DNA from: Fibrobacteria bacterium AD312
GTDB lineage: Bacteria > Fibrobacterota > Fibrobacteria > Fibrobacterales > Fibrobacteraceae
Direction of reading: 5' to 3'
DNA: 64,000 nt
Assembly (NCBI GenBank): GCA_001462345.1
Contig: LIUM01000026.1
Coordinates: 1-64,000, forward strand
Below the pieces are notes generated by a model. It did no database searches and had not been told where the DNA came from. It saw only the letters and a program-made list of their open reading frames with translations. Below, piece after piece: positions 32,098 to 56,107 of the stretch. A program made the translations under genes and the position numbers. Position 1 is the stretch's first letter, and each line of letters starts with the position of its first letter.

Positions 32098-34107
32098 TTA
32101 AGCGTCGCCGAACTTTTCATTGACTTGACGCTGAATATCACTTAAACGTTTTTGAAGATCTAAATCTAAAGGATTTTTTTTAATAAGGTCTTGATAAATG
32201 TTCAAGGCTTTAGAATAAAGACCTTGTTCAAAATAAATTTCAGCGAGAGTTTTTGTATTTAAATTTTCATCTAGAAGAATTTCATCTTGATCTAAAGAAG
32301 CAGATGGATTTTTCATCAACGCGACAGCCATTTCATCATCGGAATCGCCTGACATTAAAAAATCAACACCATCACGTTCTTTAGATTTTTCTTTAGGGAG
32401 ATCGTCATCTTCATCTGAGGAGAACAGAGATGCAAAGGCACCTGATACTTCATCCTTGACTTCAATTGGGCGTATCGGAGAATCTAAATCACTTGAAGAT
32501 AAAACAGAACTTTCTTTTATTTTTTCAACCGAGTCAAAGGAATCTATGGAATCGTCATCCTTCCCAAAAAGAGCTGAAAATGAATGACCAACATCTTCTT
32601 CTATGGAACGGAGTATAGCCCCATCATTTTTTGGTTCTTCTGCATTTTGTATTGAAGGTAATTCAAGATCGTCATCTTCTCCAAATAGAGCGGAGAATGA
32701 ATTTTCAATATTATTCTTAACAATAGATTCATCGACAGGAACAGACTTATTTTCCTTAGGTAAATCTAAATCGTCTTCACCAAAAAGAGCCGATAAGCTA
32801 GAATCCACAGCAGAAACAAATTCTTCCGCTTCATTTTTGGGATCTACTTTTTTAGGTTCCATTAGGAGACTCTTATCAATTTCACTTACAAGATCACTCT
32901 TTTCAAATGTATTTTCTAAAGTTTTTTCTTCTAAGTCATTGGATGCAGACTTTTCAAACATGTTTTCGAAAGGTTTTTCTTCTAAGTCATTGAATGCTGA
33001 CTTTTCAAATGTGTTTTCTAAAGTTTTTTCTTCTAAGTCATTGGATGCAGACTTTTCAAACATGTTTTCGAAAGGTTTTTCTTCTAAGTCATTGAATGCT
33101 GACTTTTCAAATGTGTCTTTTGTTAAATCATCTGAAGCAGAAAATTCTTCTGGTAATTCATCTTGTCCAAAAATATCATCAAATGCACTTGAAAGACTTT
33201 GAGGCTTTTCTTCATCCACTTTTTTCGCAGGTTCAACAACTTCTTCTGAAACAGTAGCCACAGGCTCTGGTTCAGGAACATCTTCTTCATCATCAATACT
33301 TGTTGGAATCTCAAAAGAAGCAAATGGAGACACCGTTTTTTCAGAAGGCAACTCATCATCCATTCCAAACATACTTGAGAATGCAGACGAGACGTCATTT
33401 TCAGAGATGTCATCTCCCCCAAAAAATTCTGGAAGACTTTCATCAGCTCCAGATATCTTATCCATCACATTTACTAAAGAATTTTCTAAGCTTTCAAGAG
33501 AAGCATCTTCTGCGTTGTCTTCATCAGAAGGCAAAAGATTGCTAAGTAATGAAAAAGGATCTTCATTTGATAAATCAGGAGGAGTAGCTAGAGCCACATT
33601 AGCCGCTTCTTCAGAAGGAATTTCAAAAGAATCGTCTTGCAAATCGACTGATTTTGAAACATCATTAGAAACAGATTCTAATTCTTCAGCTTTTTCTTCA
33701 ACAGCAATGTCTTCTGGAGGGATGAAAGTATATTCTTCTTTCCAGAAAGAATCTAAAGGATCCATATCATGAACCATTCGATAGCAAAAATTTCTTTTGC
33801 CAATTTGGTTTATTTTATGGTAAGCGGCTCCTAAACGACGCCAAGCTGCAATACAAAAAGGATCTTTTTTTACAATGAATTCACAGGCTTCAATAACTTC
33901 ATCAAAGCGTTCTAAATCAAAATAAATAGCAGAACGAACTAATAGTCCAGGTAAATAATCGTGTAAATAGGATAGCCCTGTATTCACAGTATCTAAAGCA
34001 ACATCTGGTTTACCTGCTTTACGTTCTAAGTCAGCAAGCCAAGCAAAAGCCAAAGAACTTGACTTTTTTCCTATTGCTTTTTTTACGCTTTCTAATGTCG
34101 CTGCCAC
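32098..34107 (-). CDS. Acidic TPR protein with repeated short motifs, pilT-linked
   Basis: Not a family I can name. TPR-like helices at both ends (about 20-120 and 614-665, TLAEIYFEQGLYSKALNIY) bracket a roughly 450-residue acidic, probably disordered region. That region has six related motifs of the form hSxxFSxLFGxDDxLP (about 239-254, 305-319, 435-450, 467-484, 506-520, 554-571) and a 34-residue tandem repeat, two copies, at 333-400. The GTG at 34107 is preferred over GTG 34113 because GAGG lies five bases before it. It sits between a Trm112-like gene (9 bases) and pilT (12 bases). TPR ends plus repeated motifs suggest a multivalent scaffold, perhaps in pilus or polarity control; this is inference. 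Confidence 0.75.
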   Translation of the reverse strand: MAATLESVKKAIGKKSSSLAFAWLADLERKAGKPDVALDTVNTGLSYLHDYLPGLLVRSAIYFDLERFDEVIEACEFIVKKDPFCIAAWRRLGAAYHKINQIGKRNFCYRMVHDMDPLDSFWKEEYTFIPPEDIAVEEKAEELESVSNDVSKSVDLQDDSFEIPSEEAANVALATPPDLSNEDPFSLLSNLLPSDEDNAEDASLESLENSLVNVMDKISGADESLPEFFGGDDISENDVSSAFSSMFGMDDELPSEKTVSPFASFEIPTSIDDEEDVPEPEPVATVSEEVVEPAKKVDEEKPQSLSSAFDDIFGQDELPEEFSASDDLTKDTFEKSAFNDLEEKPFENMFEKSASNDLEEKTLENTFEKSAFNDLEEKPFENMFEKSASNDLEEKTLENTFEKSDLVSEIDKSLLMEPKKVDPKNEAEEFVSAVDSSLSALFGEDDLDLPKENKSVPVDESIVKNNIENSFSALFGEDDDLELPSIQNAEEPKNDGAILRSIEEDVGHSFSALFGKDDDSIDSFDSVEKIKESSVLSSSDLDSPIRPIEVKDEVSGAFASLFSSDEDDDLPKEKSKERDGVDFLMSGDSDDEMAVALMKNPSASLDQDEILLDENLNTKTLAEIYFEQGLYSKALNIYQDLIKKNPLDLDLQKRLSDIQRQVNEKFGDA
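32908..33111. repeat. Near-identical 102-bp tandem repeat within the TPR gene
   Basis: Two adjacent 102-base copies (32908-33009 and 33010-33111), nearly identical in DNA, encode the alternating units FEKSAFNDLEEKPFENM and FEKSASNDLEEKTLENT. Each 102-base unit is itself two diverged 51-base halves. Such similarity implies recent duplication or slippage, so copy number may vary between strains. Confidence 0.85.
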
Positions 34108-34115
34108 AAACACCT

Positions 34116-34367
34116 CTATCTTTTCAAAATAATTGCTTCATCTGCTAATAAAACAGGAATGTTTTCAACTACTGGATATGCACGAGAGCCATCCTTGGTA
34201 ACAAGTAGGCTATTCAATGGAGCTGTAATTACTTGTCCTGAAACATTTTTTAAAGTTTTTTCACTAATTTTTTGATTCAATTCTTTTAATAGAAGACCAT
34301 CGGCTTCTGTTAAAGGAAGTTTTGTTTCTGGACAACATAACATTTGAAGTAAATCGGAATCAATCAT
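34116..34367 (-). CDS. Trm112/UPF0434-like small protein
   Basis: Short protein related to the Trm112/YcaR family, whose members act as zinc-binding partners of methyltransferases or have unknown roles in bacteria. MIDSDLLQMLCCPETKLPL matches the family start LLEIlaCPxCkgpL, and DGSRAYPVVENIPVLLAD matches the conserved YPvrdGIPvLL end. The second cysteine of the usual CPxC is replaced (CPET), so zinc binding is doubtful. I take the ATG at 34367, seven codons inside the longest frame, because GAAAGGTG lies just upstream. It heads the TPR-pilT operon. Confidence 0.7.
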   Translation of the reverse strand: MIDSDLLQMLCCPETKLPLTEADGLLLKELNQKISEKTLKNVSGQVITAPLNSLLVTKDGSRAYPVVENIPVLLADEAIILKR

Positions 34368-34428
34368 AACACCTTTCTTTTCATACACTTATGATAAAAA
34401 TAACATCATTTTAAGAAAACGCACGATA

Positions 34429-35937
34429 TTAATCGAGGTATTTTAGATTTACGAGAGCAAAATCGCCTTTTTTCTCGCCATCTATCAATAAATACTGTTT
34501 TAAGGGCAAATCTTGAAGAATCAAATCATTAAAATACTCTCTATAACCAGAACGATTGGAGTAAATCAATAGTTCTCGACAACCTGTTCTCTGACAAATT
34601 GACTTAAGTTCATTGACATGCCCTAATAAATGCATTCTATTTTCATCTGTGGCTTGATCAGGAACTCCACTAATGCAACCTAAAATTTCCATCCCTGGGA
34701 TCAAGTCATATTGATTAAACCATCGATGGAGAGAATCTGACGAACCACCTACGATAATCGAGCGATGCCTTTGTTTTGAAAAGATGCGATAAAAATAAAG
34801 GCCCCAAAACCATATACGTCGCCAAAAAATAACGCCACCTAAAGCAAAAAAGACTGATGCGATAAACGCAGGAGGTTCATGCATATAAAAATAGGCAAAT
34901 AAAGAAACCGCAATCTGAATAGGGAACAAGTATTTCAGATAATGTGACCCATCTAATTGAGGCGAAGAATAATCTCCAAGACACATGAGAGGAAACCAAA
35001 TAGATAGAGCTAACAAAACAGCAAAATCAAGAGAAATAGGCCCAGCTACCGCAAAAACAATACCTATATCAAAAATCATTTTCCAAAATTGAGGAATTAA
35101 TCTTGAAAAAATACCTACGAGCGAAGCAAAGAAAATACCTATTGAAACTAAGAATAGAGGAATATGAAACTGTTTGTGTTTACGATTAAAAATAATCATC
35201 GCATTATAAAAATCTAAATACGATCTGAAACGTCTTGTTTTACTACTCTGCCCTCTAAAGTGAATAATATTGGTTTCAGGAAAATAAAAGTTTTTATAGC
35301 CCAGTTTTTTTGCACGAAAACAAAGATCTAGGTCTTCTCCATACATAAAGAAGGATTCATCAAATCCTCCTAAAGTTTTATATAATTCATCACTGATACA
35401 AAAAAAGGATCCACTAATCGCATCGACTTCTGTTTCTTGATCTGGATCTAAATAAGTCATGTTATACGATGCAAAAAAACGACTTTTGGGAAATAATGAA
35501 GCAAGGCCAATAGTCTTAAAAATAGCGGCTAAAGGTGAAGGGAATGCTCTTCGACAGGCCCACTGAAGAGAGCCATCTTCATTTAATATTCGGCACCCCA
35601 CAAGACCCGCTTTTGGCTTTTCTTGAATATACTTGAGCGTCTTTGAAAAGGCCGTTTTAGAGACAATCGTGTCAGGATTGATAAAAAATAAATACGGCTT
35701 GGTAGCGTGAGTCGCAGCCAAATTACAGCCACGTCCAAAGCCTAAGTTTTCCTTAGACTCAAGCCAAATGACTTCTGGAAACATTTCCTTAACTTCAGTC
35801 GTCAATGGATACGGAGATCCATTGTCTAACACAATAATTTCTGAATCAATATCAATTAAAGCCTCTCTTACGGAAGCTAAACACGCAGGAATAAAATCTC
35901 TTGAGTTATATGCAATAATAATAACAGAACAAGGCAT
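34429..35937 (-). CDS. GT2 glycosyltransferase fused to membrane and nucleotide-binding-like domain
   Basis: Three-part protein. Residues 1-265 are a family 2 glycosyltransferase (SVIIIAYNSRDFIPACLASV, NLGFGRGCNLAA, FINPDTIV as the DxD region, SGSFFCISDELYKTLGGFDE, FMYGEDLDLCFRAK), of the type that adds rhamnose or similar sugars. About 265-390 holds several transmembrane helices. The last 110 residues (RSIIVGGSSDSL, LGCISG, LLGHVNELKSICQRTGCREL) resemble the Rossmann-like CoA_binding_3 region found in front of WbaP/WcaJ sugar-phosphate transferases, but no phosphotransferase domain follows. The ATG overlaps the previous gene's stop as TAATG, so it is translationally coupled to the polyprenyl-phosphate sugar synthase. 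Acceptor and sugar are unknown. Confidence 0.8.
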   Translation of the reverse strand: MPCSVIIIAYNSRDFIPACLASVREALIDIDSEIIVLDNGSPYPLTTEVKEMFPEVIWLESKENLGFGRGCNLAATHATKPYLFFINPDTIVSKTAFSKTLKYIQEKPKAGLVGCRILNEDGSLQWACRRAFPSPLAAIFKTIGLASLFPKSRFFASYNMTYLDPDQETEVDAISGSFFCISDELYKTLGGFDESFFMYGEDLDLCFRAKKLGYKNFYFPETNIIHFRGQSSKTRRFRSYLDFYNAMIIFNRKHKQFHIPLFLVSIGIFFASLVGIFSRLIPQFWKMIFDIGIVFAVAGPISLDFAVLLALSIWFPLMCLGDYSSPQLDGSHYLKYLFPIQIAVSLFAYFYMHEPPAFIASVFFALGGVIFWRRIWFWGLYFYRIFSKQRHRSIIVGGSSDSLHRWFNQYDLIPGMEILGCISGVPDQATDENRMHLLGHVNELKSICQRTGCRELLIYSNRSGYREYFNDLILQDLPLKQYLLIDGEKKGDFALVNLKYLD

Positions 35938-36650
35938 TATGCCAAACCTAATCGAAGTTTTAATACTAAGAAAAATGCTTCTGAAATAATTCCACCACTC
36001 ATTTTTGAAGCACCTCGTGTTCTATCGGTGAACACGATTGGTATTTCAGAAACACGTAATCCTTTTTTCCAAATCTTAAACGTTGTTTCTATCTGAAAGC
36101 AATAGCCATCACTTTTCATATCAGATAGATTTAAAGCTTCAAGAGCTTCTCTTCGAAAACACTTAAACCCACCAGTAGCATCACTTACAGGCAATCGAGT
36201 CACTATACGCGTGTATAAATTAGCCCCATAACTTAAAATCAATCGTTTCATGTCCCAGTTAACAACGCTAATTTTTCGATCTAAATAACGACTACCTAAA
36301 ACCAAATCACTAGTCTCGGCCTTTTCTAAAAAGCGAACTAAATCTGTAGGAGCATGACTAAAATCTGCATCCATTTCAAAAATTCGTTCGAAACCCTGTT
36401 CTAAAGCCCACTTAAATCCCATAACATAAGCAGAACCTAATCCCAGTTTACCAGAACGACGTAATATATGAATACGAGGATTTTCATCCGACATTTTTTG
36501 AACGATATCACCAGTACCATCAGGTGAATTATCATCTACTACTAATACTTCTATACACTCGTGTTGAGATAAAATTACTGGCAAAATAAGAGAAATATTC
36601 TCTTTTTCATTGTATGTTGGAACAATGACTAGACTTTTAGGATATTTCAT
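35937..36650 (-). CDS. Polyprenol-phosphate mannose synthase-like GT2 (DPM1 type)
   Basis: Soluble GT2 enzyme expected to move mannose (or another hexose) from a nucleotide sugar to a polyprenyl phosphate on the cytoplasmic face. Motifs are VIVPTYNEKENIS, VLVVDDNSPDGTGDI, FEMDADFSHAPTDL with the metal-binding DAD, LVLGSRY and FTDRTRGASKMSG, matching DPM1 and its bacterial relatives. The best start is ATG 36650 (237 residues): GGAG lies seven bases upstream, and the longer frame to 36695 has none. That ATG overlaps the last 14 bases of the upstream glycosyltransferase gene. Donor identity is inferred from family. Confidence 0.85.
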   Translation of the reverse strand: MKYPKSLVIVPTYNEKENISLILPVILSQHECIEVLVVDDNSPDGTGDIVQKMSDENPRIHILRRSGKLGLGSAYVMGFKWALEQGFERIFEMDADFSHAPTDLVRFLEKAETSDLVLGSRYLDRKISVVNWDMKRLILSYGANLYTRIVTRLPVSDATGGFKCFRREALEALNLSDMKSDGYCFQIETTFKIWKKGLRVSEIPIVFTDRTRGASKMSGGIISEAFFLVLKLRLGLA

Positions 36651-37593
36651 ACGGTTTCTCCAAAGGGAGTGTAAGCTCAGGAAGTACTTCAGCAACTGGA
36701 TATGTCTGTTTTTTATTTTGGTTCATCATCTCTCCTAATAAGCCAAGAGAAATAAACTGAACGCCCATTACAAGAGAAAAACCACCCATGAGTAGTAACG
36801 GACGAACACGAAGAGCTCCTGTTTGAAGCCACTCGATTCCAAAATAGCCTGTAATACCAAGGCCACAAAATACAAAAAGTAAACCGATCAGACCAAAAAA
36901 GTGAAGGGGCTTTGCACCGAAACTTTTTAAGAATAATAATGTCAATAAGTCTAAAAAACCTGAAACCAAACGAGAAACACCGTATTTTGAAACACCATGG
37001 ACTCTGGCTCTATGAGTCACTGGCATTTCAGTAATTCGGAAACCCTGCCACTTCGCCATAACAGGAATAAATCGATGAAAATCACCATATAATGGGATGA
37101 AACGTACTACAGAACTTCGGTAAACTTTAATACCACAATTAAAATCATGGAGACGCTGACCACAAACAAATGATACAGTCAAATTAAACAGTTTAGATGG
37201 CCATGTTTTATGCCATGGATCATGACGACGTTTTTTCCAACCAGAAACCAAATCATAACCACTTTCCAAAATACGAATCATTTTAGGAATTTCTAAAGGG
37301 TCATCTTGTAAATCACCATCAAGAGTAGCGACATAATGCCCTTTCGCCTTTGAAAAGCCTAAGGAAAGTGCTGCCGCTTTTCCACAGTTAAATTGAAAAC
37401 GATACGCACGGATAAAAGAATATTTACTTATTAATGAGGTCAAGACTTCCCAAGAATCATCTCGACTTCCATCATCAATAATGATCACTTCATAAGAATA
37501 ATGAGTGGGCTCTATCGCTGATACGATTTCAGCAAACAAATCAGCAAGATTATCTGCTTCGTCTTTAATAGGTATAACAATACTTAAATCCAT
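36637..37593 (-). CDS. GtrB/ArnC-like polyprenyl-phosphate glycosyltransferase
   Basis: Membrane GT2 enzyme that makes polyprenyl-phosphate sugars. The catalytic part (1-230) has LSIVIPIKDEADNL, VIIIDDGSRDDSW, NCGKAAALSLGFSKA, TLDGDLQDDPLEIP and the acceptor-site region FNCGIKVYRS; two transmembrane helices follow at about 228-252 and 265-290, the topology of GtrB and ArnC. The ATG at 37593 lies 14 bases behind the DUF2723 gene. A second polyprenyl-phosphate sugar synthase follows, so the cluster probably supplies two different lipid-linked sugars to membrane transferases. Confidence 0.88.
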   Translation of the reverse strand: MDLSIVIPIKDEADNLADLFAEIVSAIEPTHYSYEVIIIDDGSRDDSWEVLTSLISKYSFIRAYRFQFNCGKAAALSLGFSKAKGHYVATLDGDLQDDPLEIPKMIRILESGYDLVSGWKKRRHDPWHKTWPSKLFNLTVSFVCGQRLHDFNCGIKVYRSSVVRFIPLYGDFHRFIPVMAKWQGFRITEMPVTHRARVHGVSKYGVSRLVSGFLDLLTLLFLKSFGAKPLHFFGLIGLLFVFCGLGITGYFGIEWLQTGALRVRPLLLMGGFSLVMGVQFISLGLLGEMMNQNKKQTYPVAEVLPELTLPLEKPYEIS

Positions 37594-37607
37594 GGTTATC
37601 TCATTTA

Positions 37608-40600
37608 TTATTCTTGATTCTTTGTTGTTGAAGAATCAGAAATAGACGTATCTTGAGCAGAGTCTTGTGATTCTATTTTCATAACAGGAGTCGCATCTGG
37701 AACACCTTGCATTGACTGAATGCTCATAGATAAACGTCCACGACCTTGATGTTCATATTCAGGAACATTTAGAAGTCCTTTTTCTAAGTATTCCTTTGCT
37801 TTTTGGTATTGACCTGCTGCTTCATAAACAAAAGCTGCAGCCCAATAAGAACGCCACTCATTAGGGAACTGATAAATTCCTTTTTCTAAATAATGAGAAG
37901 CTTGCTTGAGTTTTTCGTCAACCACCAACTTCTTCTCGACTGTATAAGGGCCCGACTTTCTAATCTCTACAATTTGCTCTCTTAAATTAAAGGCAATTTG
38001 CAAGTATAAAGAAGTATAGCTAGATAACAAACGTTCTGTTTCTGTATTAATATAGCATGAGCCATCTCCAAGACAGCGGAATTTATAAACACTATCGATT
38101 AACTTGCCAGAACGCTCCATATCAAAGTCGTTCTGACGAGAAGTAAGATCCCCTTTAATAAAGTTATAAATTAAACCTTCTTGAACCATGTACTTTTCAA
38201 GCCCCATAAAGTTGGATGAGCCAACAGTTGTGGAGAAATGAATTGGACGATCCATATTTTGAATAGCAAGGTCTATGACTAATTTATGTTGAGTTAACAT
38301 TAAGCCAGCTCCAGAACGTTCTTGCCATTCTTTAAAGGCCGTATAAACTTGAAGCATCACTTTAAATTGCATTATTTTCGCGGAATCTAAAGGGACATTT
38401 GATTGAGTAGAATCAGAAGATTCCATTTCTTGAATTCTCTTTTCAAGAATAGGGATCAAAGTATTCGCTTTTTTAATCCATGTAGCAGTCATGTGATTAG
38501 GGTTATTATCGGAAGCATCGCTGATAACCATGTCACGATCAATGCCTTCTTTATCATAACTTAATTTTAAAACTGGTTCATTTTCAAGCATCTGCTTGAT
38601 GTACCAATCTGTATTACCAAGACTTAAATTGACAACACGCACGTCTTTACGAATACCAGCCACTTCTTGAGCAAACCAAAGAGGGAACGTATCATTATCA
38701 CCATTTGTAAATAAAATGGCATTTGGCCTACAACTCTGTAACAAGTTATAAGCATAATCCCATGGAACCCAAAGACCTGAACGATCATGTTCCTTATAGT
38801 TTGAAACGGAAGGAACGATAAGGGCCACTAGCGTTAAAACAGCTGCTACAGGAATTGTAAGAGACATTTGATAAAGAGCAACGAGTAAAACTAAAATACC
38901 TGCACCAATACCAAAAATGAGAGACATGAAAATAAATGCTGGTGTATAGAAATAATCACGTTCGCGAACTTCTAAATGAACAGGCTCAGGGAATGGAGGA
39001 CGTTGCCCCACACGAGCATAAGCGTTTTCGATTTGTCTCCAGTTTTGCCATACAGATGAATTTTCATACTTACGTACATCAGCTTCTGCCGCCGCAATAG
39101 CAGATGGATCTGCGTTATTATAGCGAAGATTAGAAACCGTCTGTTTTGCACGTTCAATATTCTGACGCATATCAATCAAAGCATTTGCATTGGGCACAGA
39201 ACTGATAGCGATTCCGCTTCGGTTAAGATCCGTTACATTACGAGACATGGCTTTCATCCAATAGTCATAATCTCGTTTTTCCATTCTGGTGCCATCGGCA
39301 AAGTTGATATAAAATATCAAGCCTAAAGAGCAAAGAACATAGAGCACAGAAAGGTATGCACCCAATTTGTGATGTCTGCGATAAACAAAAACGCATACAG
39401 CAATAATTAAGCCATTAAAGAATAAAAACCAAAGAGCTTGAACAAAAGTATGATCTCCCATCACCGTCATTTGTGTAGGGAAATCGATACCCAAGCGAGT
39501 TTGTGGCTGATTTTCGGAAGCATCAAAAGAGTAAAGGCCCCTGGATGAATTTACACCACCTACTTTGAACGGTAAATATTGAGCAATTTGATAACCACCA
39601 AAGCCCATATTTGGGAAACTTAAGATTTGATGAGAAAGTTGAGCTCGGCGATAGAAAGCTCTACTAATCATGCTTTCAGAGCCATATTGTTTACGTTCAA
39701 TAAAATTATTAAAAGCAACCCAATTTTCATCTTTTAATAAATTACCAAGTTGTAAATTTCCCTGTTCATCACGGATATTAATTTCTGGATTATTCTCATC
39801 AATAATTGGGTTTAACTCTGAACGAATAGGGATATATAAATGCGTGCTATAACCAATCAAAGCCACAAATGTAAAAGCAAAAGCGAGTCGCACATAACGC
39901 ATCACTGGAACAGAAAAAGGTTTTGTTAAAGTTAAAATGAGTAATGCAAGTAAAGTCACTAATGAAATAGAAATAAATCCTGAGACATAATAAATCACAG
40001 AACAAAGAAGTACACCTGTAATCCAGATAGGCGTTTTTTGTTTAATCTTATTAAAATCAGCGATTAAAATTAAAACAAAAAGAGCTGGGATAGTAAGCAT
40101 TGTATATAAGTGAGCGCCTACCCCTAAGAATGCGATATAACAAATAAAAATTAAAATACGATCACCTTGTTCTTTTTCGCGACGATCATACCACACTAAA
40201 CCAAGATAAGAAACCAAAACAAGGATAAACATGGCAACACCGTATACTTCAGCTTCCACGGCATTAAACCAGAATGTATCAGAGAACGTGAGTAAAAAGC
40301 CAGAGACTAAACCAGCGGTGCCAAGAACAATATAACGAGTAGTTTTTGATAGTTTTGAGGCTAAAGAATCCTTAGCTAAAACCTTGGTAAGTAAGTCCCA
40401 AGCAAACAGCGAAATTAAATACACGGTGGCAGCAGAACTCACAACTGAAATGTAATTAACTCTTTTTGCTATTTCTTCTACAAAAGGAAGAATCACTATT
40501 ACAAATCGTGCAAAAAAGACAAAGAACGGAGTTCCAGGAGGATGAGGAATACCTAACGTATTTGCACACGCGATAAATTCACCACAATCCCAAAAGCTTA

Positions 40601-40694
40601 CCGTTGGCGCCATTGTCATTGCATAAACAATAAAAGCAACTAATGCAGTAAATCCAGCGACTAGATGTTTAATCCATTTTTCGTTTTTAAGCAC
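37608..40694 (-). CDS. DUF2723 membrane protein, probable GT-C glycosyltransferase
   Basis: Large polytopic membrane protein (1028 residues) of the DUF2723 family, to which human TMEM260, a protein O-mannosyltransferase, belongs. The start MAPTVSFWDCGEFIACA and LGIPHPPGTP is the family signature, with acidic D/E residues in the first loop as in GT-C enzymes. About a dozen transmembrane helices occupy the first two thirds; a soluble region with RPNAILFTNGDNDTFPLW follows, and the C-terminus (about 950-1000) contains a TPR-like pair (YLEKGIYQF, AKEYLEKGLLNV). GTG 40694 has AGAGGAG six bases upstream. Adjacent polyprenyl-phosphate sugar synthases make a lipid-linked donor plausible. Confidence 0.85.
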   Translation of the reverse strand: MLKNEKWIKHLVAGFTALVAFIVYAMTMAPTVSFWDCGEFIACANTLGIPHPPGTPFFVFFARFVIVILPFVEEIAKRVNYISVVSSAATVYLISLFAWDLLTKVLAKDSLASKLSKTTRYIVLGTAGLVSGFLLTFSDTFWFNAVEAEVYGVAMFILVLVSYLGLVWYDRREKEQGDRILIFICYIAFLGVGAHLYTMLTIPALFVLILIADFNKIKQKTPIWITGVLLCSVIYYVSGFISISLVTLLALLILTLTKPFSVPVMRYVRLAFAFTFVALIGYSTHLYIPIRSELNPIIDENNPEINIRDEQGNLQLGNLLKDENWVAFNNFIERKQYGSESMISRAFYRRAQLSHQILSFPNMGFGGYQIAQYLPFKVGGVNSSRGLYSFDASENQPQTRLGIDFPTQMTVMGDHTFVQALWFLFFNGLIIAVCVFVYRRHHKLGAYLSVLYVLCSLGLIFYINFADGTRMEKRDYDYWMKAMSRNVTDLNRSGIAISSVPNANALIDMRQNIERAKQTVSNLRYNNADPSAIAAAEADVRKYENSSVWQNWRQIENAYARVGQRPPFPEPVHLEVRERDYFYTPAFIFMSLIFGIGAGILVLLVALYQMSLTIPVAAVLTLVALIVPSVSNYKEHDRSGLWVPWDYAYNLLQSCRPNAILFTNGDNDTFPLWFAQEVAGIRKDVRVVNLSLGNTDWYIKQMLENEPVLKLSYDKEGIDRDMVISDASDNNPNHMTATWIKKANTLIPILEKRIQEMESSDSTQSNVPLDSAKIMQFKVMLQVYTAFKEWQERSGAGLMLTQHKLVIDLAIQNMDRPIHFSTTVGSSNFMGLEKYMVQEGLIYNFIKGDLTSRQNDFDMERSGKLIDSVYKFRCLGDGSCYINTETERLLSSYTSLYLQIAFNLREQIVEIRKSGPYTVEKKLVVDEKLKQASHYLEKGIYQFPNEWRSYWAAAFVYEAAGQYQKAKEYLEKGLLNVPEYEHQGRGRLSMSIQSMQGVPDATPVMKIESQDSAQDTSISDSSTTKNQE

Positions 40695-40697
40695 GTC

Positions 40698-41138
40698 TTA
40701 CTCCTCTCGAGATTTTTGATCAATAAACATTTGATGACTTTTAGCATACACATCTAAAAGTCCATTAATAAAGCGGGCAGAATCATCTGTGCTAAATTTA
40801 TTAGCAATTTGAACAGCTTCTTGAATGATCACCTTTACAGGGATCTCTTTTTTATAAAGCAGTTCGATGAAAGCTATTTCCAAAATAATTTTATCCAAAA
40901 TAGGCATACGGTCTATTTTCCAGCTATGAGATAAGCCTTCAATCACCTCAACCAATTCTTTTCGATGTTCAAGCACAAGATCTACTAGAGACATCCCATA
41001 CTTTTTCAAATCATCTTGTATTGGCTGACTTTGTAAAATCCCAGGTAAACATTCTCCTGGAGTACCAGAAGTCAATTCCATGGCATACAACAATTGCATA
41101 GCAAAAACACGCGAAGGCCTTTTACTTACTGTACTCAT
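40698..41138 (-). CDS. nusB: Transcription antitermination protein NusB
   Basis: All-helical 146-residue factor that binds boxA RNA with NusE (S10) in antitermination of rRNA transcription. Family landmarks are the start KRPSRVFAMQLLYAME, the central ILDKIILEIAFIELLY and the C-terminal SARFINGLLDVYAK. Its ATG overlaps the ribH stop (ATGA), the common ribH-nusB arrangement, and it ends 3 bases before the DUF2723 gene. Confidence 0.95.
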   Translation of the reverse strand: MSTVSKRPSRVFAMQLLYAMELTSGTPGECLPGILQSQPIQDDLKKYGMSLVDLVLEHRKELVEVIEGLSHSWKIDRMPILDKIILEIAFIELLYKKEIPVKVIIQEAVQIANKFSTDDSARFINGLLDVYAKSHQMFIDQKSREE

Positions 41139-47768: not shown

Positions 47769-50204
47769 TTATTCTGCTTTTTTCTCTTCTTTTTGATTAG
47801 AAACTGAACCTATGGAATCAGTCGTTTCTGATTGCGAAATTTTTTCGACAAGTTCTTGAGCCAATTTTCCATTAGATTCGATATTCTTAATCAACCAGTC
47901 CACAGACTCTTTTAGCTCACTTTTTGGATATTTAGAAATGAACTCTTTAAAGAGAGGAAGAGCTAAAGAATCTCGCTTTAAGTTTTCAGATAATACAAAA
48001 GCGCGACTAAATAATGCTTTTTCTGCATCAGGGTCATTAGGCCATAGTTTATAAAAAACTCTATATTCGGATTCAGCGTCAGTATAGTTTTCTAACTCAT
48101 TGTCAATCGTTGCAATCTCAAACGTGGCTTTCTTAAATACAACTTCGTTGTCTGGATAGATAGAACGAACTAAATCATAATTAGCACGTGCTTCATTCAA
48201 TTTACGACGATTATAATCGTTCTCAGCTTGTAAAATCAATGAGTCAGAAGAAAGAATTGTTTTTAAAGGAGGCATTGTAGGATTAAATACAGTGACTTTA
48301 TATTTACTCCACATTTCTTTTTCTAAACGTTTCCATTGATTTTTTTCTTCGATAGAAGAGATGTTTCTAAAAATCATTCCACGAGCAGCATCAAAATTAG
48401 CAAAGGATTGATAAGCCTCTTCATTGAAATAGTATTCTCTCTTAAGAATGTTTTCAGGGGTTTTTAAATATGTTTTCAACAAAGGACGAATTTCTTCGAA
48501 TGGTGCATTAGGAAAAATAATCTGTCCTACTTCCTGATAAGCCGCTTTGAGCTTTTCTTCTGTAAACTCTTCTTTGACTTTTAAGGAATCTCTAAATAAT
48601 TGATTGATAATATCTCGTCGTGTTTGGCGGACAAAAGCCTTATACTCCCATGATTTATCTAGATCTAATGATTTTGCCTCCAAAGCGTAAACCGCCCACT
48701 GAGATAAGAAATTCATTAATTTGGAACGAGTAAATGCAGAACGCTGATTTACAGGGATTTCATTATGAAGAATTCTTAAATCTTTTTCTGTCACTACTGG
48801 TTTTCCATTGGATGTAAGTAAAACAGTGGAAGAGTCGAGTTCTAAACTGATATCACTTGCAAATACATTTAAGATATGTGAACGCACACGTTCGAATGAT
48901 TTTTGTTCAGAAGCAACTATTTTATCAAGGTAAAATACGTGGTATTTCCCTGTATTTGGAGCCTTAATTACAGAAGAAATAGTTCCTGCAGGCTTATCTT
49001 TGAATTCATTAAATAATTGAGGAATAAGGCCTATTCCATAAGGCAAAGTATGACTTTCTTTAATATGCCCCACTAAACCTTCTTTTTCCTTTGTAAATGG
49101 ATTTTGGTTAAATTCGATTGCTTTTTTCTTAAAATCGGCAAGAGAAAATACCTGACTTAAAACTTCTTTATTTAAGAGAGTGGAATCAGTATGTTCAATA
49201 TGATAAACGCTATAACCTGGTAACGTTTTGTATAAGTCAATGTGAGAATTGTAATATTCTTTTAAATGAGAATCATCTATCGGCGGCTCTACAATAGCAT
49301 ACTTTTCTTTAAGACGATTATAAGACTCCCGAATCATATCTTGCTTGTAAAGTTCTACAAACTGGCGATGGATTTCCTCTAAATGATCTTCAAGAACAGG
49401 TTCTACAGCTTCTTTTCTGGAGATAATTTGTATGGTATAAAATACGGTATCACCTAAAGAAAGAGGGACTACGAGCGTTTTTGGAGGGACGTTCACTGGT
49501 ATAGCGGAATCACCAAAAATGAAAGGCTTTATCTCCATACGATCTAATAATTCATGTTCCGTCTTTTCATATAAAGTGACTCGATTAGCTCCATTAATAG
49601 AATCTAATGGTGTTTTAGCAAGGATTGCTGATTCAATTTTTGCAAAATCTTTCCTTGCTCTTGATCTATAAAAATAGAGCTCTGCTTGAGCAGGTTGAGT
49701 GAACTCAGGTAATTTCATTTCAATAAAGCGTTTTAAAGAATCAGCATTCGTTTTCAAATAAAGCTTCTGCGCCACCTTTCCACGAATATCATTAAACGTT
49801 TCAAAAGAGTCTAAAGGAAAAGAATCCCGATTCGCTTCATAAAACTTTTTTACATCACTTTCTTTAAAACCAAGCATTTCCATCACATGAAACTGTTGGT
49901 ATATCATCGTCAAATAACGATCATTCATCCGTTTAACATCGGCATCTGCTATTGCAGAAATACCTGGATAGGAAGTCCGAGCAAAAGCAGCCATTCCTTC
50001 ATTAAAAACGACTTCATTAAAAATCTCGGCAAAACGAGCTGATTTTTTATCGACTTGAGCAAACTTTTGAGGTAATTCTACATCGGAGAGGTATATTTTT
50101 TCGCTCCCAATCCGAGCCACTAATTCTTCTTTTGTTCCTAAAGAATTACATCCAACAAGGCCTAAAAAAATTAAAGAAAGTAAAAGAATTATTTTCGAAT
50201 TCAT
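47769..50204 (-). CDS. Periplasmic parvulin-type prolyl isomerase lipoprotein with TPR end
   Basis: Predicted lipoprotein chaperone of the SurA/PrsA type. MNSKIILLLSLIFLGLVGC is the lipoprotein signal, with GARIG-SEKIYLSDVELPQKF typical of the SurA N-domain start. A parvulin-like domain is recognised around LPGYSVYHIEHTD to LPYGIGLIPQLFNEFKDKPAG and KYHVFYLDKIV. The C-terminal 150 residues look like TPR/YbgF-type repeats (ARANYDLVRSIYPDNE, YTDAESEYRVFYKLWPND). I choose ATG 50204 because GAGG lies six bases upstream. It is divergent from tamB-tamA, consistent with a role in outer-membrane protein folding. Catalytic activity of the parvulin domain is not certain. Confidence 0.8.
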   Translation of the reverse strand: MNSKIILLLSLIFLGLVGCNSLGTKEELVARIGSEKIYLSDVELPQKFAQVDKKSARFAEIFNEVVFNEGMAAFARTSYPGISAIADADVKRMNDRYLTMIYQQFHVMEMLGFKESDVKKFYEANRDSFPLDSFETFNDIRGKVAQKLYLKTNADSLKRFIEMKLPEFTQPAQAELYFYRSRARKDFAKIESAILAKTPLDSINGANRVTLYEKTEHELLDRMEIKPFIFGDSAIPVNVPPKTLVVPLSLGDTVFYTIQIISRKEAVEPVLEDHLEEIHRQFVELYKQDMIRESYNRLKEKYAIVEPPIDDSHLKEYYNSHIDLYKTLPGYSVYHIEHTDSTLLNKEVLSQVFSLADFKKKAIEFNQNPFTKEKEGLVGHIKESHTLPYGIGLIPQLFNEFKDKPAGTISSVIKAPNTGKYHVFYLDKIVASEQKSFERVRSHILNVFASDISLELDSSTVLLTSNGKPVVTEKDLRILHNEIPVNQRSAFTRSKLMNFLSQWAVYALEAKSLDLDKSWEYKAFVRQTRRDIINQLFRDSLKVKEEFTEEKLKAAYQEVGQIIFPNAPFEEIRPLLKTYLKTPENILKREYYFNEEAYQSFANFDAARGMIFRNISSIEEKNQWKRLEKEMWSKYKVTVFNPTMPPLKTILSSDSLILQAENDYNRRKLNEARANYDLVRSIYPDNEVVFKKATFEIATIDNELENYTDAESEYRVFYKLWPNDPDAEKALFSRAFVLSENLKRDSLALPLFKEFISKYPKSELKESVDWLIKNIESNGKLAQELVEKISQSETTDSIGSVSNQKEEKKAE

Positions 50205-50285
50205 TTGTATCCTCATAGAGAAGAATTATTAAACAGAAAAGAGTTGCCCAAAAAAATATAAAAAACAACTTTTAAGACAATTCGT

Positions 50286-53200: not shown

Positions 53201-54239
53201 GCTTACATTATTCAAAAACACTTTAATTAAATTTAGAAAATCCTCTGTAGAGAAGACTTCTGTTGCGACAGGCCGTCCGACCAACTTATCTATTCACATA
53301 AGTGACTCTCAAAAAGATTCTGTCGCTATTTTAACAAGTATTGCCAAATTTCCTTTCAGTGCTGATTTTTGGTTACTTGGAACAACGCAACACCCTATAC
53401 TTCGTGGCGATATAACAAGTTCAGGAGAAGGTTTTTTAGGGATAGAAAAACTATATGAATTCGATTTAGACTATTTTAGAATATCATGGCCAGATGTACC
53501 TTGGCAAAAAGGGATATTGGACGTTTCTAGTTCCCAAGAATTACCCTATTGTAATTCAAAAGAAAAAGAAGATGAAGAAACTTGTCCTATTAACTTAAAT
53601 GTGATGGGTAATATTACAGCGCCGCAAATTTTACCAAGCTCGTCCTGTGGTAATGAGTCTTCTGCTGCATCTATGTATTATAATATCTTTCTTGGCTGTA
53701 TTTCTGATGAGAATACCACAAACTTAACAGACTGGAATAAATTAGCAGGAAAAGCCATTGGAAAAGCTCTCTCTTCCACAGCAAATAAAACGCTTGGTGG
53801 TGATTTCATTGGCGACATTGATATGAAAATTCAATTATTTAACTCCGCAGGAGCATCAGAAAAAGACTCCAGCTATTTTAGAATTCCTATTTCTCTTGAT
53901 CGCTGGGTTAAAGATTTAAGTCTTATTTTTGGATACACACAAGATCAAAGCGAAAACCCTTCTTATGACCAATCTCTTGAACTTGGTGTAAACTATACAA
54001 TCCCTGTATTTAATAAAGATGATCAAAATCAACCCGAACATCTTGACCCCAGATTAACACTGAAAGGAAGTTTGATTTCAAAACAATATATTTCAAACAC
54101 AGGAACTGGTAACTCGGAAAGCCGCGTAGAAAAGAACATTGGTTTTAATTATTCTTATCGTTTTTGGTCTCCTTGTTTTCTTGGCTTTGGACAATGTAAA
54201 GAAAGACGAAATGCTTTTGACGAGGACAATGAAGAATGA
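50286..54239 (+). CDS. tamB: TamB-like translocation and assembly module protein
   Basis: Large inner-membrane-anchored periplasmic protein of the TamB/AsmA-like group, which bridges the envelope and is linked to outer-membrane protein insertion or lipid transport. One transmembrane helix (about 33-55, LVAFAFFAIFVGGVIF) precedes roughly 1200 residues of beta-strand repeats typical of a hydrophobic-groove beta-taco, and a C-terminal DUF490-like part (about 1000-1317). No ATG is available near the start; TTG 50286 is the only early candidate in frame, so the exact start is uncertain. Its end overlaps tamA by 4 bases (ATGA), the classical tamB-tamA pairing. Confidence 0.85.
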   Translation: MKQNIHILTILSLLLKETDPQQQSSIKHHWVRRLVAFAFFAIFVGGVIFTAWSVFYWLDYFLEKKQTYGSITVEPFQYSREHLLSHHWDSIHVSSPDFFISIKNPHLRLFDILSSKRSLSIKAEQVKCHISPKPKDSTSTPFSLDSIQIPDISIPIPVFISLDSTFIEIDSSLSWKTQSIKLNNESSNNVSLSIQYVEGSFIASPLSVDGTLLLDGTEIISELKINTTEDHTNLKVNAPKNDLRSYKIELEASIQDPKKWLPEKTLPEGIPTFSNLTIQASLTENQDHSDYTYNGTLKINTSEFWPLEPLSNEISFIGNSKEIKTTAVLRNEDGGEISLNGTVDFNLDFNLNGSVKNMSAEFGPQIMPLDIQIHSAIKKGNSIVADLETKRGSKIKGELTNLDSNPRIDYDAKITPTESWALDWTGGHLTLEELTLISGHFQNGKLFAHAKIAPVPYAYLMKADSVDTDLVLNKNGILFSNIRVFTQKETFFGSGEVIWADSCPHTAWEINQPNGSFAKAWIDFNDSLKINAEVKDIEVSTIPFAKPNPLNRVKGTVTGSWDHNFENNVGKANIHASTKLEPFLIEGDFAVQQKQDTVIIQKAKISHNINIIEAEATFVIPQESAPKGILPVDILHAWVSSHEFDIPLLLQPLQDSTFKSAFFSGDLAFNKETGLQGNINIDSILFNHISEEVLKIHRVNLFAEKNKAELNTYLKIGNGGWDGNTQVILSDLFKSKRHLNISHSTKTGGTIWADGFIDSSLTFNGSIRAKDSWFLPAKAGEITQTDLNIDIKAPLKKGLSGIEAQFYSDNSMYKIPSFDMTIPVSFHGKMKDKIITVANVKTKNNLDEEINASVQFNLDHMELDAIRFYSEKYSLIYDSIHSIEVKNLFGQMEDFSDEFIISSDLFEIAYNLNSPTLGKASANLRGKLNVNIPHSKKNSIENTTVNGSIYIDKAVYEKEIDIDISPKSIDRLLTLFKNTLIKFRKSSVEKTSVATGRPTNLSIHISDSQKDSVAILTSIAKFPFSADFWLLGTTQHPILRGDITSSGEGFLGIEKLYEFDLDYFRISWPDVPWQKGILDVSSSQELPYCNSKEKEDEETCPINLNVMGNITAPQILPSSSCGNESSAASMYYNIFLGCISDENTTNLTDWNKLAGKAIGKALSSTANKTLGGDFIGDIDMKIQLFNSAGASEKDSSYFRIPISLDRWVKDLSLIFGYTQDQSENPSYDQSLELGVNYTIPVFNKDDQNQPEHLDPRLTLKGSLISKQYISNTGTGNSESRVEKNIGFNYSYRFWSPCFLGFGQCKERRNAFDEDNEE

Positions 54240-56107
54240 AAAAATCTATTCTAATCTTCTTTTTATTAAGCGTCATTTCTCTTTATGCCTCAGATGAAGT
54301 TAAAAATCCTTGGTATGTTGATTTTTCAGGAAACAAGTTGTTTTCAACTTTCCAGTTGACAGACCAACTTGACGTGCCAACAGAATTCGGCCAAATGGAT
54401 ACAACAAAACAAGATTTTTTAATGAAACTTGCAAAAGAGGGGCTTACTAGCCTTTACTATGCAAAAGGTTTTTTCAGTTCCGATATTAAACTTGAAATTC
54501 AACGAGAGTACTATTCTTTAGATAGCGCTCAACGAGGTTACCTATTTTATATCACAGAAGGGCCTCAATATACACTCGATTCCATCTCTATTTCGATTAA
54601 AGAAGGTCATGCTAAACTCAAAATCAATGAAAATAAACTTGAGTCCAATAAGAAGAAATCCTATAATTCTCAATTCATTATTGACGATTTAGAATACATC
54701 AAAAGTATCTATCGAAAAGAAGGCTATTTACACACAACAATCGATTATCATGAATTAATAGATACCCTAAAGCATATCGTGATGTTAAAAGTTCAAGTAG
54801 ATCCTAAAACTCAAGTATTAATGGGAGATATAAAAAGCAGAGCATTTAAGCCCATCAATAAAGGAAATACAGAATCGCCACAAGAAGAAGGTCTTTCTGA
54901 TACGACTTGGTTAAATTCACTTTGGAGAATTCCTTCTGAAAACCTCATTGATGGTGAACAATTTAGTTCTTTCAAAAACAAGCTGTTTTCAACCCAATTA
55001 TTTACTCAAATCAAACTCGAAGATTCATTGCGAGCCGATGGATTTTCAGACGTTCACCTTCAAGTCATAGAAAGAGTTCCTGGAGAAGTAAAATATTCCA
55101 TTTTCTTTGAAGAATACTATGGCTTTGGAGGTAGTGCTAGCCTTCGTCATAAAAACTTTTTCGGCTCTTTTCATGAATTTTCTACAAATCTTTTTGTCGC
55201 ACAAAATAAACAAGAGGTCGCCCTAGGTTATGCAAATCCCCTTTTATTTGGAACAGCCTTAACATTTATTCCTACGGCCATTCGATTTGAAGATCGTCTT
55301 TCATTTAATCATGAAAAAATTACTCCGCCCGCTTACCCTGATAGCGTTGAAGAGCGAATGGAAATAATTAATCGTGGTGATATCACTTTTGGCCTATCAT
55401 CAAGAATTCGATTTCGTGGCACTCTCGACTCCCGTTTTGTTAACAAAAATAATGATCAAATTTTCAAATTTAAATATGAAAATGCACTTACTTTTGATTT
55501 TACAGATGACTTTTTTAATCCTAAAAAAGGAATGCGATTCATACCAACAATAGGCGCAGGAATAAACTTAGAAGGAGCCGAAATGATCGGTGATCCTTAT
55601 ACTTATGGTGAACTAACAACAAATCTTTACTTTCCTATTATCGGAACTCTATTAGGAGCGATTAGCGGTAGTGGAGGCATCTTTTTTAACAAAGCTCTTG
55701 AAGATGATGCTCGTATTTTTTATCAAGGAGGAGCGAGATCCGTCCGAAGTTATCGATTTAGAAGTATCTTTGCAAGTTACGAAACCGTAGAAGATGGCGA
55801 TACCTTAATCAATACTAGTTTAACTCCTCGATACTTACGCCTCAACCAAGAACTTCGTTTTAATATTCCAAGCGTTTCATGGAAAAATTGGCAAATAGTT
55901 CAATTTTTTGATTGGTCCAAAGTCATGGATAAAGACAGTGATTTATATAAGAGTAATTCTTCCGCGAGTTTTGGGCTTGGCATTCGCTACCACTGGCAGT
56001 TCTTAACTCTTCGCTTGGATTATGCATTCAAAAAAGAATTTGAAAAAATGTCTCCAGAAGGCTTCGAATTTGATCGTTTTACTTTTGACTTATCTCAAGC
56101 ATTCTAG
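54236..56107 (+). CDS. tamA: TamA/BamA-family outer-membrane protein (Omp85)
   Basis: Outer-membrane insertase-type barrel. A signal peptide (MKKSILIFFLLSVISLYA) is followed by POTRA-like domains to about residue 275 (GPQYTLDSISI, IDDLEYIKSIYRKEGY, GEQFSSFKNKLFSTQLF) and a 16-strand-type barrel (YYGFGGSASLRHKNFFGSFH, FFNPKKGMRF, GGARSVRSYRFR with the conserved VRGYR-like motif, GLGIRYHW). The last residue is phenylalanine (FDLSQAF), as in BAM substrates. Co-transcribed with the preceding tamB-like gene, which favours TamA over BamA. Only the VRSYR form departs from VRGY. Confidence 0.88.
   Translation: MKKSILIFFLLSVISLYASDEVKNPWYVDFSGNKLFSTFQLTDQLDVPTEFGQMDTTKQDFLMKLAKEGLTSLYYAKGFFSSDIKLEIQREYYSLDSAQRGYLFYITEGPQYTLDSISISIKEGHAKLKINENKLESNKKKSYNSQFIIDDLEYIKSIYRKEGYLHTTIDYHELIDTLKHIVMLKVQVDPKTQVLMGDIKSRAFKPINKGNTESPQEEGLSDTTWLNSLWRIPSENLIDGEQFSSFKNKLFSTQLFTQIKLEDSLRADGFSDVHLQVIERVPGEVKYSIFFEEYYGFGGSASLRHKNFFGSFHEFSTNLFVAQNKQEVALGYANPLLFGTALTFIPTAIRFEDRLSFNHEKITPPAYPDSVEERMEIINRGDITFGLSSRIRFRGTLDSRFVNKNNDQIFKFKYENALTFDFTDDFFNPKKGMRFIPTIGAGINLEGAEMIGDPYTYGELTTNLYFPIIGTLLGAISGSGGIFFNKALEDDARIFYQGGARSVRSYRFRSIFASYETVEDGDTLINTSLTPRYLRLNQELRFNIPSVSWKNWQIVQFFDWSKVMDKDSDLYKSNSSASFGLGIRYHWQFLTLRLDYAFKKEFEKMSPEGFEFDRFTFDLSQAF

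Follow-up and report, generated by a model that had tools for sequence, protein, structure and literature searches.

A TMEM260-type glycosyltransferase cluster in a Fibrobacterota genome and its proposed part in O-glycosylation of exported proteins

What might a bacterial relative of the human enzyme TMEM260 be doing beside genes for the synthesis of lipid-linked sugars? The question is raised by a 64,000-nucleotide stretch of contig LIUM01000026.1 from Fibrobacteria bacterium AD312 (positions 1 to 64,000, the window in what follows), part of a 2.83-Mb genome whose closest named relatives are Fibrobacter. Between positions 34429 and 40694 the minus strand of the window encodes a large TMEM260-type membrane glycosyltransferase and three GT2 proteins, and we consider it probable that this cluster makes polyprenyl-phosphate-mannose and uses it to initiate O-glycosylation at D-[S/T]-hydrophobic sites in exported proteins, in the manner known from the Bacteroidota. 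All steps of this pathway are deduced from family membership and gene context, from which we also infer that mannose is the sugar and protein the acceptor.

The four genes and their products

On the minus strand the transcription order is nusB, the TMEM260-type gene, a GtrB-like gene, a DPM1-like gene and a gene for a GT2 fusion protein, with successive spacings of 3, 14, −14 and −1 bases. The first-pass annotation had described the last four as a set with overlaps or gaps of 14 bases at most, and this is confirmed, with every open reading frame (ORF) present on the minus strand at the positions given below. The cluster was likewise borne out as a conserved unit: the same gene order recurs in other genera and thus goes beyond chance. 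In 13 of 40 sampled Fibrobacterota loci the genes for GtrB, DPM1 (>50% identity) and the GT2 fusion all lie near TMEM260 on the same strand, and nusB stands beside TMEM260, again on the same strand, in 26 of the 40; several of the remaining loci are short contigs, contig ends or second copies.

The TMEM260-type protein (positions 37608 to 40694; 1028 amino acids, with a C-terminal helical, TPR-like region) scores 169.6 bits against Pfam family PF11028, whose cut-off is 24.2. When 20 of its relatives are combined into a profile and compared with the PDB, the solved structure of human TMEM260 (9rql) is matched at E=3e-29. The alignment to 9rql consists of two stretches, the N-terminal membrane region, in which the D-x-G-E and HPPG motifs are aligned, and part of the soluble domain. 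W35-D36-G38-E39, in the acidic loop after the first membrane helix, and H51-P52-P53-G54 (HPPG) are invariant in 28/28 sequences, and by analogy D36 presumably has a catalytic role. An AlphaFold2 model built on the 28-sequence alignment (predicted local distance difference test score, pLDDT, 85.7; predicted template modelling score, pTM, 0.85) matches GT-C enzymes, among them yeast STT3 (Z 21.8), ArnT (20.5) and Pmt4 (20.0), at a root mean square deviation of 4–5 Å over 385–441 residues; the 50 matches listed include the oligosaccharyltransferase (OST) class. ArnT and the arabinosyltransferases AftB and EmbB stand in that same list beside protein-modifying enzymes, and the GT-C fold alone is no proof of function. 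Solved TMEM260 entries are absent from the fold matches listed, which says nothing about family membership. On profile and model evidence, then, we assign the protein to the TMEM260/GT117 family with a GT-C fold. This supports an earlier suggestion that the locus combines donor synthesis with GT-C transfer.

In human cells TMEM260 is a protein O-mannosyltransferase (CAZy family GT117) that targets IPT domains and no short motif (PMC11292533; this and the other published sources are cited from excerpts). The two proteins are alike in PF11028, in the N-terminal membrane region and part of the soluble domain, and in GT-C class. They differ in that the bacterial protein is longer (1028 amino acids, the human chain having 729 residues), ends in a TPR-like region, is encoded in a cluster with a DPM1-like gene and has a short motif, not IPT domains, as its proposed target. 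Pmt/POMT enzymes (GT39) share the GT-C fold (Z of about 20 to Pmt4) and, by analogy, a lipid-phosphate-mannose donor; the TMEM260-type protein differs from these in having no match to PF02366, the PMT family. No PF02366 match was found anywhere in the genome, and a PMT-family protein was therefore rejected as the glycosyltransferase. We propose, from sequence family and context, that the TMEM260-type enzyme carries out periplasmic transfer of lipid-linked mannose, or of a mannose-containing disaccharide, to Ser/Thr.

The donor could come from the DPM1-like protein (positions 35937 to 36650, PF00535), a putative polyprenyl-phosphate mannose synthase. Its best solved relative is the dolichol-phosphate-mannose synthase of Pyrococcus (5mlz, 1.4e-28; the next match is at 6.9e-8), it conserves the motifs DDxSPDGT, MDADxSH and DRxxGxSK, and its gene is the only close copy in the genome. 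The frame is open as far as a TTG at 36695, which is probably the wrong start: most relatives align from about residue 16 and an ATG is present at 36650. From this likelier start, the one used for the spacings above, the ORF overlaps the GtrB-like gene by 14 bases. The product of the latter (36637 to 37593; 318 amino acids, a PF00535 GT2 domain with C-terminal membrane segments) has ArnC (9hwj, 4.3e-42) and GtrB (5eke, 8.1e-31) as its closest solved relatives and is proposed to be a donor synthase for a further sugar. The two candidates find their best PDB matches among ArnC/GtrB and dolichol-phosphate-mannose synthases, differing from these known enzymes in falling below equivalog cut-offs; for the DPM1-like protein the top NCBIfam match is PpgS at 70.6 bits against a cut-off of 370.

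The GT2 fusion (34429 to 35937; 502 amino acids, PF00535) joins a GT2 domain to membrane helices and a C-terminal domain. Its matches to TIGR01556 (3.6e-10) and TIGR03025 (4.5e-7) are both under the cut-off, the GT2 domain being weakly rhamnosyltransferase-like; the sequence FFMYGEDLDLC is kept in most relatives, and the structure model is of moderate quality (pLDDT 79). The weak resemblance of residues 333–466 to polyprenyl glycosylphosphotransferases (TIGR03025) is to the non-catalytic N-terminal part of these enzymes, and a catalytic domain is absent. This C-terminal domain is perhaps a regulatory or nucleotide-binding module.

Exported proteins and the D-[S/T]-hydrophobic motif

If the cluster initiates protein glycosylation, what are the acceptors? 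We counted the motif D[ST][AVLIMT] (hereafter D[ST]h) against the expectation from each protein's own composition. In a sample of the same genome comprising 20 stretches (L151–L170; 367,449 bases), 54 exported proteins hold 217 motifs where 90.6 are expected, a ratio of 2.40 (bootstrap interval 1.82–3.06) that rises to 2.97 in the 21 lipoproteins. When 20 residues are compared at position −1, D stands at 2.40 and the next, A, at 1.40; at position +1 the preference is for L (3.78), I (2.79) and T (2.10). With the exported proteins of the window added, 264 sites compare with a shuffle mean of 112 and a maximum of 141 in 1000 shuffles, and 50 of the 62 proteins have at least one site. In the exported proteins no enrichment is seen for the related patterns E[ST]h, N[ST]h, h[ST]D and [ST]Dh (0.71–0.92).

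The signal is of similar size at other Fibrobacterota loci (2.22 to 2.45) and near unity in two controls under the same rule, E. coli (1.11) and Desulfogranum (1.16), the second of which carries TMEM260. Pooled loci around TMEM260 give 2.34 in Zixibacteria, 1.84 in KSB1/Calditrichota-like contigs, 1.65 in Marinimicrobia and 2.19 in four unplaced contigs. The values for Latescibacterota (1.51) and Gemmatimonadota (0.82) come from two proteins each, too few to judge, and the samples from Desulfogranum (0.72, three proteins) and Bacteroidales contig L125 (0.82, five proteins) are also tiny. Genome samples gave 1.34 for Zixibacteria and 0.82 and 1.28 for two Latescibacterota. One Bacteroidota genome in which no PF11028 was found (G359) stands at 0.75, a weak control as the genome is fragmented and the count covers 10 exported proteins only. 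Two further observations were made in the own-genome sample: the 151 cytoplasmic proteins have a mild D[ST]h excess of 1.38 (1.18–1.58), and the lipoproteins a scattered D[GN]h excess of 1.88 (interval 0.62–3.24).

Exported proteins, cellulases included, had been put forward as likely targets, and the window supports this. Its secreted GH9 cellulase (4617 to 10406, plus strand; PF00759, 4.8e-61) has 16 D[ST]h sites against 8.2 expected and is a candidate substrate, as are a peptidyl-prolyl isomerase (PPIase)-domain lipoprotein (47772 to 50216, minus strand; PF13145, 9.4e-12) with nine against 1.8 and an Omp85/POTRA outer-membrane protein (54236 to 56104, plus strand; PF01103, 8.3e-15) with eight against 1.8. 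Two narrower suggestions were not supported. Ser/Thr-rich linkers had been named as the sites of attachment, but masking Ser/Thr-rich stretches leaves the signal slightly stronger (2.55 against 2.37 unmasked); serine-rich lipoproteins had been named as targets, but the two most Ser-rich in the window are unenriched (3 against 2.5 expected and 3 against 4.0).

Gene context and the Bacteroidota core glycan

In B. fragilis the core glycan is alpha-2-O-Me-Rha-(1->3)-Man-O, attached at D-S/T-hydrophobic sites, and the core-glycan genes are located elsewhere than lfg (PMC8698959). A 2025 review describes the core transferase and core flippase as undiscovered and the core-glycan machinery as unidentified; it reports motif enrichment across the Bacteroidota, under another normalisation, with similar enrichment in the Fibrobacterota, and considers homologues of the eukaryotic O-mannosylation machinery, and this sister phylum, worth examining (PMC12871550). 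A search of published papers, with bioRxiv preprints outside its scope, found none, among the titles and excerpts it covered, naming a bacterial TMEM260 relative as the core transferase, so that earlier work on this link may exist.

The distribution of the genes would suit such a role. PF11028 is present in 166 of 167 Fibrobacterota genomes, the genome studied here carrying one such protein, and in 197 of 198 Bacteroidota genomes (a draw from the phylum to which a Bacteroidales genome belongs), and a DPM1-like gene (E<=1e-25) in 160/167 and 61/61 genomes, respectively. Further clues come from the neighbourhood of TMEM260 elsewhere. In older branches of the class (L047, L048, L049 and L068) TMEM260 is followed by genes for a GT4 and a PF03706 membrane protein, with rmlD just before DPM1. 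Outside the phylum, TMEM260, a PF03706-like protein, rmlD and DPM1 form one run on ten contigs (L129, L131, L134, L137, L138, L142–L145 and L148, from KSB1, Calditrichota and a few others, one of them labelled Actinomycetota), five of which have a methyltransferase and a GT4 gene before TMEM260. Of 119 loci tabulated, 17 have rmlD and DPM1 on the same strand within 9 kb of TMEM260, on 15 distinct contigs (L044 = L089; L048 = L092). The RmlD of L131 scores 241.3 bits, above the TIGR01214 cut-off of 224.05, and that of L047 209.2 bits, below it. In KSB1-type clusters (L131, 13747–15250, and similar) the flippase-like gene and rmlD are separated by genes for a DUF4837 protein and PurE.

Comparable parts are found in the genome studied here. 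One place in the 20-stretch sample, on contig C2 (L152, 6865–9737, minus strand), has a methyltransferase gene, a GT4 gene and a gene for a flippase-like protein (PF03706/TIGR00374) in a row, and rmlD is found on contig C44. Among all loci collected, the C2 methyltransferase matches only five proteins at E<=1e-20, those encoded before GT4-TMEM260 in KSB1-type clusters (42–45% identity over 252–261 aligned positions). The GT4 has 24 matches in TMEM260 clusters at 33–40% identity, some contigs being counted twice, and one weaker match (24.9%, L050), likewise near TMEM260, whilst the flippase-like protein scores above the TIGR00374 cut-off. As the trio matches genes of TMEM260 clusters, it seems that what forms a single set elsewhere is here divided between separate loci. 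The four genes had been presented as a compact set; they are indeed a real unit, but on their own probably an incomplete one, to which the C2 trio seems to belong.

Taken together, the context offers candidates for the parts that a Me-Rha-Man disaccharide would require: a mannose-lipid synthase, a member of a mannosyltransferase family, an enzyme of rhamnose synthesis, a further glycosyltransferase, a methyltransferase and a flippase-like protein. The likeness to the Bacteroidota system, in which an outer-glycan lfg locus lies beside metG, extends from the motif in exported proteins to these candidate steps, from mannose donor to flippase, which would fit the core; the difference is one of phylum, the excerpts giving a glycan structure for the Bacteroidota and none for the Fibrobacterota. 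The assignment of enzymes to individual steps is our inference from these families. The DPM1-like enzyme would make mannosyl-phosphate-polyprenol in the cytoplasm. Rhamnose from dTDP-Rha, supplied by way of the RmlD encoded elsewhere in the genome, would be added by the GT4 and then methylated by the methyltransferase; these enzymes and the flippase-like protein, together at C2 here, stand beside TMEM260, RmlD and DPM1 in other phyla. The flippase-like protein would turn the lipid over; in the periplasm the TMEM260-type enzyme would then attach either mannose or the complete disaccharide to Ser/Thr, later sugars being supplied or added by the GtrB-like and GT2-fusion enzymes.

A bolder reading than donor synthesis plus GT-C transfer, which we put forward tentatively and with rather less confidence than the role proposed for the cluster itself, is that TMEM260-type proteins are the missing core transferase of D-S/T O-glycosylation throughout the Bacteroidota, the Fibrobacterota and, among neighbouring phyla, KSB1, Calditrichota and Zixibacteria. 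They would move preassembled (methyl-)rhamnosyl-mannose from a polyprenyl monophosphate carrier to protein; the DPM1-like enzyme would load this carrier, the TIGR00374 flippase-like protein would turn it over, and animal TMEM260 would be a relative of the bacterial initiating enzyme. The locus thus names candidate genes, from conserved context, for the core transferase and flippase steps. If the reading is true, it ties a human disease enzyme, TMEM260, to a pathway of common gut and rumen bacteria and points to a possible modification of Fibrobacter cellulases.

Alternative explanations and neighbouring genes

Several results weigh against O-mannosylation of exported proteins by this cluster. 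None of the three GT2 proteins reaches an NCBIfam equivalog cut-off, and exported proteins were called by a home-made rule, a script for signal peptide or lipobox. In the Fibrobacteraceae the trio and rmlD lie away from the TMEM260 cluster. The methyltransferases of KSB1-type and Zixibacteria-type clusters are just 29% alike over 116 amino acids, and three loci (L100, L128 and L140) have a phosphoesterase and no methyltransferase before TMEM260. The genome also encodes a second GT-C candidate, the only other one among the families tried: a protein of at least 839 amino acids on contig C5 (L258, 922–3438) with a weak PF13231 match and an NPCBM carbohydrate-binding domain. Finally, the motif is not enriched in 20-kb samples from each of 40 Bacteroidota genomes (216 observed against 193.9 expected; 1.11, interval 0.92–1.37), the reversed motif standing at 1.12 and the two halves of the sample at 1.23 and 0.96; three Bacteroidota genomes taken singly gave 1.75, 0.81 and 1.12 on 9–14 exported proteins each. 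A rule that the presence of TMEM260 brings motif excess fails in this sample, although 197 of 198 Bacteroidota genomes carry TMEM260. Gene and motif excess are not simply coupled, and simple correlation is lost as support. As glycosylation is already proven in the Bacteroidota, a null motif count is no refutation there. Motif excess is a feature of the Fibrobacterota in this analysis, and TMEM260 alone does not predict it.

Could the acceptor be something other than protein? The GT-C enzyme might use the polyprenyl-phosphate sugars made by the DPM1-like and GtrB-like proteins on lipopolysaccharide, lipid or exopolysaccharide, as do ArnT or mycobacterial GT-C enzymes. The presence of ArnT, AftB and EmbB among the fold matches listed would fit this, as would the weak polyprenyl glycosylphosphotransferase-like domain of the GT2 fusion; moreover, GtrB/ArnC-like synthases serve lipopolysaccharide modification. 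By sequence family, however, the enzyme belongs with TMEM260 and not with ArnT, it is the sole PF11028 protein of a genome whose exported proteins have a strong D[ST]h signal, and its gene context corresponds to the components of a core disaccharide known to be linked to protein. We regard a glycolipid or polysaccharide product as unlikely.

A little less likely still is that the TMEM260-type enzyme O-mannosylates an exported set defined by fold or domain and that another enzyme, such as the PF13231-like GT-C protein of C5 or a Wzy_C protein on contig C47, serves the D[ST]h sites. The preference of human TMEM260 for IPT domains over a short motif (PMC11292533) suggests as much, other candidates are present in the genome and the motif excess and TMEM260 are uncoupled in the Bacteroidota sample. 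Against this, the PF13231 match of the C5 protein is weak and the protein has an NPCBM domain, and the D-S/T glycans described in the excerpts begin with mannose (PMC8698959, PMC12871550), for which the genome has one close DPM1. The Wzy_C protein, the only one in the genome, lies among glycosyltransferases in a polysaccharide-like cluster, like a polysaccharide polymerase, and was rejected as a protein glycosyltransferase. It is very improbable that a bias in the composition or structure of exported proteins accounts for the D[ST]h excess without any glycosylation: cytoplasmic proteins do have their mild excess, but the related and reversed patterns are unenriched, E. coli and Desulfogranum stay close to unity under the same rule, Ser/Thr-rich masking leaves the excess undiminished and the review gives the same enrichment for the Fibrobacterota (PMC12871550). 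Our favoured explanation is still that exported proteins are O-glycosylated at D-[S/T]-hydrophobic sites.

Some observations concern the surroundings of TMEM260. Upstream of the cluster, nusB (40698 to 41138, minus strand; PF01029) is a conserved neighbour outside the pathway, the last gene of a ribE-ribBA-ribH-nusB run. This run also precedes TMEM260, directly or one gene off, in Zixibacteria, Gemmatimonadota and Latescibacterota contigs (loci with the linkage outside the phylum include L100, L105, L108, L128, L140 and L146), which suggests that the linkage is old, without an evident functional reason. A gene of about 245 amino acids between nusB and TMEM260 was considered as a methyltransferase and rejected, the product being a phosphoesterase in three of four loci checked (L100, L128 and L140; not L108). 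In Desulfogranum japonicum (L130; G168 contig C32), outside the Fibrobacteres–Chlorobi–Bacteroidetes (FCB) group, two TMEM260-type genes lie about 14 kb apart, one of them about 2 kb from a DPM1-like gene (37% identity); horizontal transfer is possible. Downstream of the cluster in the window are genes for a Trm112-like small protein (34116–34388) and a large acidic repeat protein containing a single TPR region (32098–34113), an order that is kept through the Fibrobacteraceae.

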